Shown here: positions 954-63,719 of the stretch, one piece after another | Numbering within the stretch: the first letter of the stretch is position 1 | Layout: every line of letters starts with the position of its first letter | From: Cupriavidus necator N-1 | GTDB lineage: Bacteria > Pseudomonadota > Gammaproteobacteria > Burkholderiales > Burkholderiaceae | Assembly (NCBI RefSeq): GCF_000219215.1 | Contig: NC_015726.1 | Coordinates: 434,001-498,000 of the forward strand | DNA length: 64,000 bases | Direction: 5' to 3' | Translations under genes and position numbers: made by a program | The notes under the pieces: generated by a model | Seen by the model: the letters and a program-made list of their open reading frames with translations, nothing else | What the model was told of the DNA's origin: nothing | The model's database searches: none

Positions 954-3900
954 ATGACGACCAACGCCTGCCGGCAGCGCCGCCTTGCGGCTTTCGCAAT
1001 CGCCCTGCTTACCTTTGCGGGCGTGAACCGCGCGCGCGCCGAGGACATCGACCTGTTCACCGGTCTGCAGACCAACGCCGGCACCAAGCCCAACGTGCTG
1101 CTGCTGCTGGACAACGCGTCCACCTGGAACGCCAGCACCACGATCAAGGGCTGCGACATTCCCGATGTGGTCAGCGCCAACAATGCCGGCACCGATGTCG
1201 GCGCGATCCAGTGCGCGCTGTACCGGGCGGTCAACACGCTCGTGACCAATCCGCAGCTCGCCGGCAACATCAACATGGGGCTGATGATGTTCGGCACCAG
1301 CACCAACACTGGCGGGATCTTCCGCTATCCGTCGGCGGCGCCCTATACGCTGCCGACCATGGATGCCACCAACGGTAACGCGTTCCTTCAGTACATCAAG
1401 AGCATCGACCGCCAGCGCGACAACTCGAACAACTCGCAGGTGGGCGGCGGCATGCAGGAGGCGTGGGCATTCTTCGCGGGCAAGAAGGGCTTGTCGGGCA
1501 CGCAGTACACGTCGCCGATCACCAACCCGTGCCAGAAGAATTTCGTCATTTACATCGCCAATGCGGTCAACAACGGCAAGCCGCAGGACACCGGCACGGA
1601 CGCCAAGGACGCGCTGGTGGCGGCCGGGGCCAACGCGACGCAGCTGACCACGCTCAAGCTGAATCCGGCCGCCAACAAGTACGAGAGCAACTGGGGTGAT
1701 GAATGGGCGCGGTTCATGTACCAGACGGACGTGAACGGCAATGTCGAGAACAACCAGAACATCATCACCTACACCATCGCCGTCACCGACGACAACAACC
1801 CGGACTATGTCGAGTCGACCCGCAGCATGGGCGACAACGGCGGCGGCAAGCGCTACGTGGTGAAGCTGGGAGACGTGCAGGCGCTGGTCGATGCGCTGCT
1901 GCAGATCTTCAACGAGATGCAGGCCGTCAACAACGTGTTCTCGTCGGTGAGCCTGCCGGTCAGCGTGAATGGGCAGGGCTCGTACCTGAACCAGATCTAC
2001 ATCGGCATGTTCCGTCCTGACGCCACCGCGGCGCCGCGTTGGATGGGCAACCTGAAGCAATACAAGCTTGGCTACGACAGCAGCAAGCAGATCGTGGTGC
2101 TGGATGCGAATCCGAGCGGGCCCAACCAGCAGAGCGCGATCAGTAATGCCGGTACGGGCTTTATCTCGCCCAACGCCAAGAGCTTCTGGACCGCGGAGCC
2201 GCCGCTGGCGTTCAGCGGCAGCAGCTATTCCGGCAGTGCCGTCACCGGCTGGCCCGCCAAGGGCTTCTGGGTCAATAGCCCCTCGGGCGCGGCCGGGGCG
2301 CTGGACTCTGCGGACGGCGCCGCTGGCGTCACCGGCGGCGACGGCGAGATCGTCGAGAAGGGCGGCGCCGGCGAAATGCTGCGCGCGCAGATCGTCACCG
2401 ACCAGGCCGCGCGCAAGCTCTACACCTGCCCGTCGGGCGCGTGCACCGCCAAGGTCCTGGCGTCGTTCGATACCGCCAACACCTGGCTGACCAACGCCAC
2501 CGGGCAGACGGCGCTGAACAGCAGCGCTGCCGACGTGAAGAACCTGATCAACTGGGTGCGCGGCCGCGACGTGCAGGCGCTGGGCGAGAGCACCGTGGCC
2601 GGCACGGAGCAGCAGAAGGGCCCCGGCGGTAGCGTCACGGTGCGCGGCTCGGTGCACGGCGATGTGCTGCACTCGCGCCCGGTGGTGATCAACTATGGCG
2701 GCACCACCGGCGTGGTGGTCTTCTACGGTGCCAATGACGGCGTCTTCCATGCGGTCAACGGCAACCAGACCACCGGCATCAACGGCGTGCGCCCTGGCGG
2801 TGAGCTGTGGGGCTTCGTGCCGCCGGAGTTCTATGGCAAGCTCGGCCGCCTCTACACCAACACGCCCGAGGTGCAGCTGAGCGGCTCGCCGACCGGCTCG
2901 GGCGCCAAACCGCGCGACTATTTCTTCGACGGCACCACCACGGTGTTCCAGGACCTGCGCGATCCGGCCAATCCGCGCGTGGTGATCTACCTGACCGCGC
3001 GGCGCGGCGGCAGGCTGGTCTATGCGCTGGACGTGACCAACCCGGTGGCGCCCGAGTTCCTGTGGAAGTCCGACAGCAACCAGATCGCCGAACTGGGCCA
3101 GACCTGGTCGCAGCCGCGCGTGATCCGGGTCAAGGGCTACACCAACCCCCTGGTGGTGATGGGCGCCGGCTACGACGCAGCCGAAGACGCCGAGCCGTCG
3201 CAGGGCGGCGGCGCGACGGGGCAGGGGCGCGGCGTGATCGTGTTCGATGCGCTCACGGGCACTGTGGTGCGGGCGTGGCTGGCCGATTGCACCGGCCTCG
3301 GCGCCACCGTCTGCTCGGTACCCGCCGGCCTGAACCGCGCCATCCCGTCAGACGTCGCGGTGGTGGACCGCAACGGCGACGGTCTGATCGACAAGGGCTA
3401 TGTCGGCGACATGGGCGGCAATGTCTGGCGGCTGGATTTCGAGACGGCTGCCGGTACGGGCCCGGCGGCCTGGACGCTGGGCAAGTTCGCCGCGCTGGGC
3501 GGCGCGCAGACCAGCAACGATGCGCGCAAGTTCATGTACCCACCAGATGTCATCACCACCGGCGCCTATGACGCGGTGATGATCGGCAGCGGCGACCGCG
3601 AGCATCCGCTATACACCACCAGCAACGCGGCGGGCCTGGCCTATAACGTCACCAACCGCTTCTACATGTTGAAGGACACCGCGCTCACCGGCGGGCTGCC
3701 TGCGACATGGACGCCGCTGACCGAGAGCAGCCTGTTCAACGCCACCGCCACGGTGTATGCCGACTCGGGTACCGGCAAGGGCTTCTACCTGACGCTGGGT
3801 ACCGGCGAGAAGGTGGTTAACGCGCCGCTGACTGTGGCCGGCTACACCTACTTCGGCACCAATACCCCCAGCGTGCCCAAGTCAGGGGCCTGCTATCCGG

Positions 3901-59676: not shown

Positions 59677-59825
59677 CGGGACTGCATTCTCCTGCATCCG
59701 CGTGCACCAAGGGGCGGCGGGCATTGTCGACAATCATTGCCGACGATGCCGATGCGGCAATCGCCTCGCACGATTTTGGTTCGGCAATCGCTTGCGGGCA
59801 CGCCCTGAAACGGAGCTTCAAAACC

Positions 59826-59840
59826 TGGCACGTCCCTTGC
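59826..59840 (+). promoter_or_regulatory. Sigma-54 promoter before the ABC importer
   Basis: CTGGCACG-TCCC-TTGC matches the RpoN consensus YTGGCACG-N4-TTGC at every fixed position, with GG and GC at -24 and -12. Transcription would begin near 59852, about 29 bases before the start at 59881. A TGCACCA half-site, like an NtrC half-site, lies about 120 bases upstream at 59703-59709. Also upstream are the palindrome ATTGTCGACAAT (59723-59734) and two copies of CGGCAATCGC. Confidence 0.8.
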
Positions 59841-59880
59841 GGACGAATCCCTCCGAGATCACGATCCACGGAGAGATTCC

Positions 59881-61023
59881 ATGCCTCATATCCACGCTGC
59901 GCCAGTGTCCCCCGGTGTTTGTGCCGCTGCCGCCGGGAACACTGACAATGCCGGCACGCGCGCGGCCCGCATCACGGCACGGCGCCGCCTGCTGAAGCTC
60001 GGCGTGATGATCGGCACCAGCCTGGTGCTGTCGACACAATTCACCGGCGCGGCCCACGCGCAGGCTGCACCAACCAAGGTCCGCTTCCAGCTCGACTGGC
60101 GCTTCGAAGGGCCGGCGGCGCTGTTCCTGCTAGGCGAGCAGAAGGGCTACTACAAGGCCGAGAAGCTCGATGTCTCGATCGACGCCGGCAACGGCTCGGG
60201 CAACGTGGTCAACCGCGTGGCCTCGGGCACGTACGACATGGGCTTCGCCGACATGTCGTCGGTGATGGAGTTCTACGGCAACAACCCCGATGCCAAGAAC
60301 AAGCCGGTGGCCGTGATGATGGTCTACAACAACACGCCCGCGGCCGTCCTGGCGCTGAAGAAGTCCGGCATACGCGCGCCGAAGGACCTCGCCGGCAAGC
60401 GCATGGGCGCGCCGGTGTTCGACGCCGGCCGCCGCGCCTTCCCGATCTTCGCCAAGGCCAACGGCCTGCAGCCGTCCTCGTTCAACTGGCAGGCGATGGA
60501 CCCGACGCTGCGCGAGACCATGCTCACGCGCGGCGACCTCGATGCCATCACCGGGTTCTCGTTCACCTCGATCCTGAACCTGAACGCGCGCGGCGTGAAG
60601 GATGAAGACATGGTGGTGCTGCCGTACCCGCAGTTCGGCGTGAAGCTGTACGGCAACGCGGTGATCGCCTCCGAGGAGTTCATTAAGAAGAACCCCGAGG
60701 CGGTGAAGGCCTTCCTGCGCGCCTTCAGCAAGTCGGCGCGCGACGTGATCGCGCGGCCGGAAGAGGGCATCAAGGCGGTCAAGGCGCGCGACGGCATCAT
60801 CGACGAAAAGCTGGAAGTGCGCCGGCTCAAGCTTGCGCTGGACAGCGTGGTCAAGTCGCCGGACGCGAAGGCCGAGGGTTTCGGGCGCATCAGCAAGCCG
60901 CGCCTGTCGCTGATGGCCTCGCAGGTGGCCGATGCCTTCGGCACCAAGGGCCGCATCAACCCCGATGCGCTGTGGACCGACGCGTTCCTGCCCAGCGCGG
61001 CCGAACTGGATGTGCTGCGATGA
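59881..61023 (+). CDS. ABC importer substrate-binding protein (NMT1/SsuA-like)
   Basis: A 380-residue periplasmic protein. The long N-region ends with an RRRLLKLG motif (residues 34-41), resembling a twin-arginine signal, then a hydrophobic stretch and a cut after Ala60 (GAAHA). The mature part starts TKVRFQLDWRFEGPAALFLL, and GYYKAEKLDVSIDAGNGSGN is typical of NMT1/THI5-like and sulfonate/taurine binding proteins. The ligand cannot be deduced. It is the first gene of a three-gene importer behind a sigma-54 promoter; the ATPase start overlaps its stop. Control by RpoN hints at a nitrogen source. Confidence 0.9.
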   Translation: MPHIHAAPVSPGVCAAAAGNTDNAGTRAARITARRRLLKLGVMIGTSLVLSTQFTGAAHAQAAPTKVRFQLDWRFEGPAALFLLGEQKGYYKAEKLDVSIDAGNGSGNVVNRVASGTYDMGFADMSSVMEFYGNNPDAKNKPVAVMMVYNNTPAAVLALKKSGIRAPKDLAGKRMGAPVFDAGRRAFPIFAKANGLQPSSFNWQAMDPTLRETMLTRGDLDAITGFSFTSILNLNARGVKDEDMVVLPYPQFGVKLYGNAVIASEEFIKKNPEAVKAFLRAFSKSARDVIARPEEGIKAVKARDGIIDEKLEVRRLKLALDSVVKSPDAKAEGFGRISKPRLSLMASQVADAFGTKGRINPDALWTDAFLPSAAELDVLR

Positions 61024-61883
61024 TGACGCGCCAGGCTGCCTTCATGCCCGCGTCCGGCGGCAGTGCCGCGCCCGCCGCGCCCCCGGGCGCGGAACCCTTT
61101 GTCGATTTCAACCGGGTCTGGCTGGCCTATAACGACGAGCTCGCGCACAAGGGCGAGTTCGCGGTCGAGGACATCTCACTGCAGGTGGCGCCGGGTGAGT
61201 TCATTGCCATCGTCGGCCCGTCCGGCTGCGGCAAGTCCACCTTCATGAAGCTGGCGACGGGGCTCAAGCCGGCCACGCGCGGCATCGTGAAAATCGCCGG
61301 CCAGAAGGTGACCGGCCCGCTCAAGCAGGTCGGCATGGCCTTCCAGGCGCCCACGCTGCTGCCGTGGCGCACCACGCTGGACAACGTGATGCTGCCGCTG
61401 GAGATCGTCGAGCCGTATCGCTCCACCCTGCGCGCACGTCGCGACGAGTACATCGAGCGCGCCCGCAAGCTGCTGCATACGGTGGGCCTGGCCGGCTACG
61501 AGGACAAATACCCGTGGCAGCTGTCCGGCGGCATGCAGCAGCGCGCCTCGATCTGCCGCGCGCTGATCCACGAGCCGCGCATGCTGCTGCTGGACGAGCC
61601 CTTCGGCGCGCTCGACGCCTTTACCCGCGAGGAGCTCTGGTGCGTGCTGCGCGACCTGTGGCAGGCGCAGCGCTTCAACGTGATCCTGGTCACGCACGAC
61701 CTGCGCGAGGCCGTGTTCCTGGCCGACACCGTCTACGTGATGAGCCAGCGCCCGGGCCGCATCCTGATGCGCAAGGAGATTGACCTGCCGCGCCCGCGCG
61801 ACCTGGAACTGACCTATACCGAGCCCTTTGCCGACCTGGTGCACGTGTTGCGCGAAAAGATCGGCCATGTGCGGCAACACTAA
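61020..61883 (+). CDS. ABC importer ATP-binding protein (SsuB/TauB-like)
   Basis: A 287-residue ATPase. Motifs are Walker A GPSGCGKST, signature LSGGMQQRASI, Walker B LLLDEPFGALD and the switch His in LVTHDLREAVFLAD. The LSGGMQQRASICRALIHEP and LPWRTTLDNVMLPLE segments are those of the nitrate/sulfonate/taurine importer family. The start overlaps the binding-protein stop (ATGA), and a second ATG follows at once at 61023. About 45 N-terminal residues precede the ATPase fold, somewhat longer than usual. The permease gene begins 12 bases after its stop. Confidence 0.92.
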   Translation: MMTRQAAFMPASGGSAAPAAPPGAEPFVDFNRVWLAYNDELAHKGEFAVEDISLQVAPGEFIAIVGPSGCGKSTFMKLATGLKPATRGIVKIAGQKVTGPLKQVGMAFQAPTLLPWRTTLDNVMLPLEIVEPYRSTLRARRDEYIERARKLLHTVGLAGYEDKYPWQLSGGMQQRASICRALIHEPRMLLLDEPFGALDAFTREELWCVLRDLWQAQRFNVILVTHDLREAVFLADTVYVMSQRPGRILMRKEIDLPRPRDLELTYTEPFADLVHVLREKIGHVRQH

Positions 61884-61895
61884 GGCAACCCAACG

Positions 61896-62669
61896 ATGAT
61901 GACTCTGACTTCCGCGCAAGAGCGCCGCGTGCAGCGCGTGGCGCCCTGGCTGCTGCTGGCCGCGGTGCTGTTGCTGTGGCAGGGCGCGTGCATGGCCTTC
62001 GGCGTGTCCGACTTCATCCTGCCGACGCCGTCGGCGATCGTGGCCTCGCTGGTGGAATATGCCGGCGTGATCGCCGGCCATGCGTGGCGCACCTTCTGGA
62101 CCACCATGGTGGGCTTCGGCGTGGCCATCGCCGTGGGCGTGCTGCTGGGGCTGGCAATGGGCTCGTCGCGGCTGCTCTATGCCGCCAGCTATCCGCTGAT
62201 GACGGCCTTCAACGCGCTGCCCAAGGCCGCCTTCGTGCCGATCCTGGTGGTGTGGTTCGGCTTGGGCGCCGGCCCGGCGATCCTGACCGCGTTCCTGATC
62301 TCGTTCTTCCCGATCATGGTCAATATCGCCACCGGGCTGGCCACGCTGGAGCCGGAGCTGGAAGACGTGCTGCGCGTGCTGGGCGCCAAACGGCGCGACG
62401 TGCTGTTCAAGGTCGGGCTGCCGCGCGCGATGCCGTATTTCTTCGCCTCGCTGAAGGTGGCGATCACGCTGGCCTTTGTCGGCACCACGGTGTCGGAGAT
62501 GAACGCCGCCAACGAAGGCATCGGCTACCTGCTGGTGTCGGCCGGCTCGGCCATGAAGATGCCGCTGGCCTTTGCCGGGCTGGTGGTAATCGCGGTGATG
62601 GCGATGGCGATGTACGAGCTGTTTGCGGTGGTCGAGAAGCGCATGACGGGCTGGGCGCATCGCGGCTGA
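61896..62669 (+). CDS. ABC importer permease (SsuC/TauC-like)
   Basis: A 257-residue inner-membrane permease with six hydrophobic segments. The BPD_transp_1 family loop appears as EPELEDVLRVLGAKRRDVLF followed by KVGLPRAMPYFFASLKVAIT, with the EAA-type sequence placed between helices as expected. It completes the importer with the binding protein and ATPase just upstream. The likely class is the nitrate/sulfonate/taurine/hydroxymethylpyrimidine group. No fourth component is visible, so the substrate may be guessed only from regulation and neighbours. Confidence 0.92.
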   Translation: MMTLTSAQERRVQRVAPWLLLAAVLLLWQGACMAFGVSDFILPTPSAIVASLVEYAGVIAGHAWRTFWTTMVGFGVAIAVGVLLGLAMGSSRLLYAASYPLMTAFNALPKAAFVPILVVWFGLGAGPAILTAFLISFFPIMVNIATGLATLEPELEDVLRVLGAKRRDVLFKVGLPRAMPYFFASLKVAITLAFVGTTVSEMNAANEGIGYLLVSAGSAMKMPLAFAGLVVIAVMAMAMYELFAVVEKRMTGWAHRG

Positions 62670-62684: not shown

Positions 62685-62728
62685 CAGGTGACGCGCAGGT
62701 GACGGACAGCCCGGCGCGGGTGGATAAT
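62685..62728 (+). promoter_or_regulatory. Candidate promoter and direct repeat before the LysR gene
   Basis: CAGGTGACG occurs twice, at 62685-62693 and 62696-62704, eleven bases apart. GTGACG (62699-62704) and GATAAT (62723-62728) form a possible -35/-10 pair with 18-base spacing. The start codon at 62736 would then be at or next to the transcription start. Confidence 0.4.
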
Positions 62729-62735
62729 CCGCGTC

Positions 62736-63719
62736 ATGGAAATCAAATGGCTTGAAGACTTCGTCAGCCTGGCCGAGACGCACAGCTTCTCGCGCTCGGC
62801 CGAGCTGCGCCACGTCACGCAGCCCGCGTTCTCGCGCCGCATCCAGTCGCTGGAGGCGTGGGTCGGCACCGAGCTGATCGACCGCTCGAGCTACCCCACC
62901 AGCCTGACCCCGGCCGGCAAGGTGTTCTACGAGCAGGCGCTGGCCATGCTGGCGCAGGTCAGCGAGACCCGCGCGCTGATGCGCGGCCAGCGCTCGGCCA
63001 ACGCCCAGGTGCTGGAGTTCGCGGTGCCGCATACGCTGTCGCTGACCTTCTTCCCGGAATGGCTCAAGGCGCTGGAGCGCCGGATCGGCACGCTGCCCTG
63101 CCGGCTGCGCGCCCTCAACGTCCATGATGCGGTGCTGATGCTGGTAGAGGGCGGCTGCGACCTGGTGATGGTCTACCACCACGCGCGCCAGGCCATCCAG
63201 CTGGATCCGGCACGGTACGACATGCTGGTGCTTGGTACCGAGCGGCTGTCGCCCTACAGCGTGCCGGACGCCGCCGGCAAGCCGCAGTTCCGGCTGCCCG
63301 GCACCGACAAGAAGCCGGTGCCCTTCCTCAGCTACACGCCCAACGCCTTCCTCGGCCGCATGGTCGACCTGCTGCTGGCCGACACCTCCGAGGCGCTCAA
63401 GCTCGACAAATGCTACGAGACCGACATGGCCGAGGCGCTCAAGGTGATGGCGCTGGCCGGCCACGGCATGGCCTTCCTGCCCGAAAGCGCGGTACGCGAG
63501 GACGTGGCGGCGGGCCGGCTGGTGCGGGCCGAGTCGGCGCGCGGGCTGCCGCTGTCGATCGACATGGAAATCCGGCTGTACCGCGAGCGCCCGGGCGAGA
63601 ACGGCAACGAACGCCGCGCCGGGGCACGGCGCAAGCGCCAGCTGGTCGATCAGGTGTGGTCGACCTTGTCAGCGGCCCAGTCCGCCCAGCCGGCCGGTGC
63701 CCCGGTTTCCGCCAGATGA
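62736..63719 (+). CDS. LysR-family transcriptional regulator
   Basis: A 327-residue regulator. The winged helix-turn-helix is at residues 1-60, with LAETHSFSRSAELRHVTQPA and FSRRIQSLEAWVGTELIDR. The C-terminal effector domain spans about 90-300. The tail from 300 is basic and low complexity. It is in the same direction as the importer upstream and the glutamate dehydrogenase gene downstream. A perfect ATGC-N7-GCAT inverted repeat of LysR-box type lies just after its stop, 82 bases before gdhA, so gdhA is a natural target. The effector is unknown. Confidence 0.9.
   Translation: MEIKWLEDFVSLAETHSFSRSAELRHVTQPAFSRRIQSLEAWVGTELIDRSSYPTSLTPAGKVFYEQALAMLAQVSETRALMRGQRSANAQVLEFAVPHTLSLTFFPEWLKALERRIGTLPCRLRALNVHDAVLMLVEGGCDLVMVYHHARQAIQLDPARYDMLVLGTERLSPYSVPDAAGKPQFRLPGTDKKPVPFLSYTPNAFLGRMVDLLLADTSEALKLDKCYETDMAEALKVMALAGHGMAFLPESAVREDVAAGRLVRAESARGLPLSIDMEIRLYRERPGENGNERRAGARRKRQLVDQVWSTLSAAQSAQPAGAPVSAR

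Follow-up and report, generated by a model that had tools for sequence, protein, structure and literature searches.

The ABC importer operon at 59881–62669 of the window, by which we mean the whole 64,000-nucleotide stretch of Cupriavidus necator N-1 DNA that was analysed, is preceded by a −24/−12 element that is retained in every orthologous locus found in the genus and is almost certainly a genuine sigma-54 promoter. The gene context of orthologues outside the genus, together with upstream motifs shared with purine-breakdown genes, suggests that the importer quite probably carries a purine catabolite. The reading as a whole, which combines a sigma-54 promoter, activation by NtrC, import of a purine catabolite and input from a purine-pathway regulator, is in our judgement somewhat likely on these sequence comparisons. 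The features concerned are as follows.

59723–59734, no strand assigned: palindrome ATTGTCGACAAT (block A), of the same class as two gntR-uraH sites of this genome
59728–59788, plus strand: array of CGRCAAT heptamers, with copies at 59728, 59741, 59755 and 59782
59768–59782, plus strand: NtrC-like site B GCACGATTTTGGTTC, one mismatch to the NtrC core, overlapping array slots 4–5
59802–59816, plus strand: weaker dyad D GCCCTGAAACGGAGC, a site 34 bp downstream of B with three mismatches to the NtrC core
59826–59840, plus strand: sigma-54 (−24/−12) promoter element TGGCACGTCCCTTGC, assigned from sequence match and conservation
59881–61023, plus strand: periplasmic binding protein, NMT1/THI5-like (PF09084)
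60972–61883, plus strand: ABC ATPase; the ORF start was placed mechanically and the true start may be an ATG near 61020
61896–62669, plus strand: ABC permease (PF00528)
62736–63719, plus strand: LysR-type regulator, a neighbour in genus loci

The sigma-54 −24/−12 consensus is TGGCACGNNNNTTGCW, and the original prediction held that every fixed base of it was matched. Agreement was found at 11 of the 12 specified positions, the final W being a G, and the element has the TGGCAY-N5-TTGC frame with GG and GC ten bases apart. A gap of 40 bases separates it from the binding-protein ATG at 59881, and transcription of the operon would be expected to start near 59852. By bare match alone the element is not beyond chance and proves nothing: TGGCAYN5TTGC occurs once in the window against 0.56 expected, 47 of 100 shuffled windows contain at least one occurrence, and when no more than one mismatch to the 16-letter consensus was allowed, the 8.48 Mb genome gave 48 + 48 matches against 41 + 50 for a control in which the pattern was read backwards, so that no excess was seen.

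The significance of TGGCACGTCCCTTGC lies in its conservation and not in match frequency. The binding protein has an orthologue in 37 of 60 sampled genus genomes, the window's own genome included, and in 19 of 200 family genomes (E up to 1e-90), all of the same genus (1 of 25 genera); TGGCAY-N5-TTGC preceded the binding-protein gene in all 37 genus orthologues. In an alignment of 30 loci, nine of the ten consensus positions TGGCAC/TTGC were invariant, the sixth being C or T, compared with 26 of 131 other gap-free intergenic columns (Fisher p=1e-5), and over all 15 element columns ten were invariant (TGGCA, CTTGC) compared with 25 of 126 others (p=3e-4, or p=3e-7 when the ten invariant columns are chosen after the fact), p-values that merely rank columns because the aligned loci are related and the columns are not independent of phylogeny. 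A sample of named genomes comprised the best 80 of 220 relatives, with 22 loci at 84–95% identity (20 labelled Cupriavidus, the nearest by binding protein being Cupriavidus necator UYPR2.512 at 95%) and 58 loci at 62–73% from Herbaspirillum, Noviherbaspirillum, Comamonadaceae and other Burkholderiales. YGGCAY-N5-TTGC was found in the expected stretch for 18 of the 56 non-genus orthologues with enough upstream sequence, against a mean of 0.21 and a maximum of 2 in 300 dinucleotide shuffles, a count that, like the others from outside the genus, includes close relatives (e.g. L123, L125, L134, L135, L144) and not independent events; the strict −24/−12 was absent from the tested stretch in the other 38. 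The same pattern was seen on the other strand in 1 of the 56 regions and upstream of 11 of 546 other ORFs in these loci, three of them puuE-like, one encoding an NCS1 permease and five matches standing before an unidentified ORF.

An accidental match, with some other promoter driving the operon, would agree with the chance-level frequency of the −24/−12 pattern in window and genome alike. It is nevertheless very improbable given that each of the 37 orthologues found in the genus retains the element, that it is enriched in other genera, and that a simple scan of the importer's intergenic region found no sigma-70-like site. The sigma-54 promoter originally predicted before the importer is thus borne out by its conservation within and beyond the genus, and the genome encodes one copy of rpoN.

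The binding protein scored 125.4 bits against the Pfam NMT1/THI5-like model (cut-off 20.5) and fell below the curated NCBIfam cut-offs for the SsuA family (70.4 of 163.5 bits) and taurine-binding TauA (43.6 of 304.25 bits). The importer shares the three-part NitT/TauT architecture and the NMT1 fold with TauABC, SsuABC and NrtABC, from which it differs in having a binding protein below the cut-offs of the NCBIfam models scored. An AlphaFold model of middling quality (mean pLDDT 71, 31 sequences) most closely resembled a thiamin-binding protein, Thi5 and a formyl-aminopyrimidine-binding protein, and TauA and SsuA ranked lower; such heterocycle-binding neighbours would be compatible with a purine catabolite ligand without showing it. 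Sigma-70-like hexamers are present at 62699–62728, between the permease and LysR genes, and the LysR gene may for this reason have its own promoter. Beyond it lies a glutamate dehydrogenase-family ORF, cut by the end of the stretch and with matches below curated cut-offs, and a glutamate/aspartate binding-protein gene is also found downstream. The original prediction invoked a gdhA just beyond the importer; an ORF of this family is indeed there, but the adjacency is seen, by position, in genus loci alone, and this neighbourhood appears to be weaker evidence than the purine context. Genes beside the genome's own 40%-identical paralogue on C1 were scanned and gave no clue to function.

Evidence on the ligand comes from loci outside the genus. 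BLAST placed one or more members of a set of ten core purine proteins near the orthologue in 39 of the 58 non-genus loci, with urate oxidase in 27, and no core purine gene in the other 19, 10 of the 58 contigs being shorter than 9 kb; none of the 22 named genus loci had a tested purine gene within 8 kb. A profile scan of representative non-genus neighbours identified urate oxidase (PF06181), hydroxyisourate hydrolase, OHCU decarboxylase, M20 amidohydrolases and GntR/FCD regulators, as well as adenosine deaminase, an NCS1 nucleobase symporter (below cut-off), a PnrA-like binding protein, a PRK12393 amidohydrolase, a cytidine/guanine-deaminase-like protein and UreD. The nitrogen-linked function proposed for the importer is supported by this purine-breakdown context, and the ligand, originally described as unknown, can be narrowed by the gene context and the shared motifs to a probable purine catabolite. 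A nitrogen-regulated importer of other cargo, whether a pyrimidine or thiamin precursor, a sulfonate or a compound related to glutamate and used together with gdhA, would account for the nearest solved folds, which bind thiamin or HMP precursors, for the weak matches to SsuA/TauA models and for the glutamate-related genes downstream. We consider it unlikely, however, since the SsuA-family and TauA cut-offs are missed by a wide margin and the scanned non-genus neighbour clusters are mostly concerned with purine breakdown.

The purine cluster of this genome is located at C3:963001-983000 (L166) and contains uraH, puuE, uraD and xanthine permease genes above NCBIfam cut-offs, a urate oxidase gene and, at about 974 kb on C3, a GntR-type gene with a sub-cut-off match to PhnR and no other. 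The puuE (allantoinase) gene has its own −24/−12 element, TGGCACGTACATTGCG, on the minus strand at C3:971905-971920 (L166:8905-8920), found in 26 of 30 loci examined, and the gntR-uraH gap contains ATTGTTGACAAT and ATTGTCAACAAA, seen in 30 of 30; the loci compared were the best 30 of 59 and 55 genomes. Neither a promoter nor a palindrome match was present upstream of xdhA in this genome. A manganese riboswitch (RF00080; 56 bits, cut-off 45) lies beside the cluster at L166:14069-14229 on the minus strand. Among Herbaspirillum-type loci, strong −24/−12 matches (e.g. TGGCACGGGCTTTGCG) were observed on the minus strand at about 7320–7500 in L114, L120, L124, L129, L133, L142 and L160, preceding an ORF divergent from the importer; one such ORF had no Pfam or NCBIfam match. 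A −24/−12 match of the form TGGCACAyCAyTTGCA was observed in L112, L113, L114, L115, L116, L118, L124, L129, L130, L133 and L160, also Herbaspirillum-type, at or near the start of a puuE-like ORF where that ORF was placed (e.g. L112:3049, with the ORF at 3210).

An NMT1-type binding protein in a purine context recalls the operons of the xanthine riboswitch (NMT1 motif, RF03054), which controls NMT1- and tauA-like genes and whose operons include NMT1/tauA-like, pcbC, PRK12393 and tadA genes, according to the accessible parts of the report (PMC7373994). No Rfam match, RF03054 included, was detected in the window between 57000 and 64000 at E values up to 1. At the gathering threshold RF03054 was found in 2 of the 58 non-genus loci (L162, L164), in each case elsewhere in the locus and not before the orthologue. 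In L162 it directly follows the orthologous importer and is itself followed by another NMT1 gene, a dioxygenase gene and a gene of the PRK12393 cluster, and the riboswitch-linked NMT1 protein shows 22% identity to the window's binding protein.

Upstream of the promoter, the palindrome A was present at the expected distance in 36 of the 37 genus loci and in variant form in the remaining one. The original prediction listed this palindrome, TGCACCA and two CGGCAATCGC copies upstream of the promoter; all are present, but the palindrome and the repeats are unlike NtrC sites. They are members of the CGRCAAT heptamer series, in which a degenerate fifth copy can be made out by eye at 59768 to give steps of 13, 14, 13 and 14, and they look like parts of a purine-regulon operator array. 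As a unique operator ATTGTCGACAAT was rejected: the same 12-mer occurs inside uraH and before a gene pair in L068 (by eye ppsA/ppsR), and ATTGTCAACAAT, a palindrome of the same class, precedes a phnR/aminoethylphosphonate-type locus.

With one mismatch allowed, four heptamers were found in 10 of 30 importer promoters (L009-L018) and one or two in the others. Three to four heptamers with the same steps were found in 7 of the 26 puuE promoters that carry a −24/−12 element (L226-L230, L232, L233), these seven belonging to a single clade, the other 19 having none or one. Measured from the −24 start, the array extends from −44 to −98 or −55 to −109 at the importer and from −51 to −94 at puuE. Chains of at least three heptamers (one mismatch) in 277 loci (1.89 Mb) numbered 35, with 15 at the importer, 19 at puuE and one in an allC-dctA gap, although the same place is in several cases represented by two loci and 13 chains come from loci chosen via a two-repeat pattern or collected for it. 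A strict triple pattern, which misses the window's own array, was found 27 times across the family, in 19 of 398 genomes, and its control 29 times (22 of these in two genomes). The raw count therefore carries no weight, which rests instead on place: 20 of the 27 were at puuE (12 genomes), 3 at allC/dctA and 4 elsewhere, with places assigned by short protein motifs and overlapping puuE arrays counted twice. A looser pair pattern, ACAATN8-9ACAAT, gave 81 matches against 8 for its control in 8 genomes and was given no weight because several of the 14 loci inspected look like −10 boxes or coding sequence. NCBIfam identifies the allC product as an allantoate amidohydrolase (545.9 bits against a cut-off of 479). 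Direct CGACAAT-like heptamers with 13/14-bp steps were observed in the allC-like/dctA gaps of L280, L288 and L292, in L274 a gene that looks GntR-type by eye is found beyond dctA, and in another genus (G134) a short tandem heptamer repeat occurs at L295:1501-1531 just before an ORF that is by eye NCS2 nucleobase permease-like.

A sigma-54 promoter is opened by an enhancer-binding protein, for which the genome offers 27 Sigma54_activat (AAA+) matches, 22 strong and 5 weak. It contains glnA-ntrB-ntrC, with NtrC scoring 685.6 bits against TIGR01818 (cut-off 558.6) and NR(II) 308.3 (cut-off 240), and TGCACCATTATGGTG and TGGCACGCTTTCTGCT lie upstream of glnA. The NtrC dyad core is GCACN5TGGTGC. TGCACCA at 59703–59709, put forward originally as an NtrC half-site, is present, but no more than 9 of 30 loci have TGCACC at that position and the assignment is not upheld. 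Site B is the better kept NtrC-like sequence. Mononucleotide shuffling of the 149-bp region produced an equally good match in 1.4% of cases, and B has up to two mismatches in 33 of the 37 genus loci (one locus unscored and one read out of register), a conservation that may not be due to NtrC because B overlaps array slots 4–5. Dyad D has one mismatch to the core in 7 of the 37; for this 37-locus count B and D were placed at fixed offsets from A, the measured spacings coming from 30-locus scans. In the latter the distance from A to B was 55 bp in 29 of 30 loci, i.e. wherever both matched, B and D, which the core scan detected together in 12 of 30 loci, were 34 bp apart in these, and B lay 48 bp from the −24 in 18 loci and 58–59 bp in 11, the extra turn falling between D and the −24. 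This pattern of constant A–B and B–D spacing with an extra turn after D would fit DNA looping from a fixed upstream complex. In other genera an NtrC-like core with up to one mismatch was found 20–170 bp upstream in 10 of the 18 promoter-bearing loci, against a shuffle mean of 0.35 and a maximum of 3 in 200, and no NtrC core was seen by eye at genus puuE promoters.

On balance NtrC is slightly more probable than not as the activator. It is rather improbable that the sigma-54 promoter is real and is served, in place of NtrC, by an enhancer-binding protein specific to the pathway and bound at the CGRCAAT array itself. The 22 strong enhancer-binding-protein matches would supply candidates, and the array stands at similar distances before two sigma-54 promoters, those of the importer and puuE, but it also occurs in the allC-dctA gap, where the pattern found no −24/−12, and the array is missing from 19 of the 26 puuE promoters that have a −24/−12. 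Because the array is found in that gap without a −24/−12 by pattern, the protein that binds it is more likely to be a pathway regulator than a sigma-54 activator.

On the preferred reading, the operon would encode an ABC importer of the NitT/TauT type that takes up a nitrogen compound derived from purines (urate, allantoin, allantoate or xanthine) and would be transcribed by sigma-54 RNA polymerase from the −24/−12 at 59826–59840. An enhancer-binding protein, most likely phosphorylated NtrC bound at site B and perhaps D, would open the promoter when nitrogen is scarce. Expression would also be coupled to purine supply by a second protein, a regulator of the purine pathway that may belong to the GntR/FCD class and would bind the palindrome and heptamer array.

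Related regulation has been described in the order. In the accessible parts of a study of Ralstonia solanacearum, RpoN1 is required for the use of xanthine as a nitrogen source and NtrC is proposed to act on the xanthine permease (PMC4676750). For Burkholderia cenocepacia, the accessible parts of the report place xdh, the urate oxidase cluster and allantoicase in the NtrC regulon and describe lowered allantoin use in an ntrC mutant, but uric acid is among 11 sources contrasted with the impaired ones, which counts against the reading (PMC5491218). The accessible parts of a Paraburkholderia phymatum transcriptome paper hold nothing on urate or allantoin (PMC5748707), and a search of a library without most subscription journals found no paper on the importer or its ligand. 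The operon resembles the NtrC/sigma-54 nitrogen-scavenging operons of Burkholderiales (glnA, glnK-amtB, RSc2118 and the B. cenocepacia urate oxidase cluster) in its −24/−12, in an NtrC-like site upstream (in several orthologues) and in the import or breakdown of a nitrogen source. It differs in that its NtrC-like site is degenerate in the genus and is accompanied by a palindrome and heptamer array, and, from the Ralstonia xanthine permease RSc2118, in belonging to a different transporter family.

The promoter is of a known type, whereas the heptamer array is a candidate new operator. We suggest, tentatively, that this may be the first NitT/TauT-type importer for urate, allantoin or allantoate, that the heptamers could be the operator of an undescribed regulator of purine catabolism, and that nitrogen hunger and purine supply might be combined as an AND gate. 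The array regulator would then act, as an equally tentative part of this proposal, both at sigma-54 promoters (importer, puuE) and at a promoter of another type (allC). Such a scheme would connect the importer with reports that Ralstonia and Burkholderia depend on RpoN/NtrC for purine use, and the short heptamer array, which was found upstream of purine genes and hardly anywhere else, could serve as bait for its binding protein. For an importer family spread through the Burkholderiales, it would provide a testable substrate class and regulatory logic.
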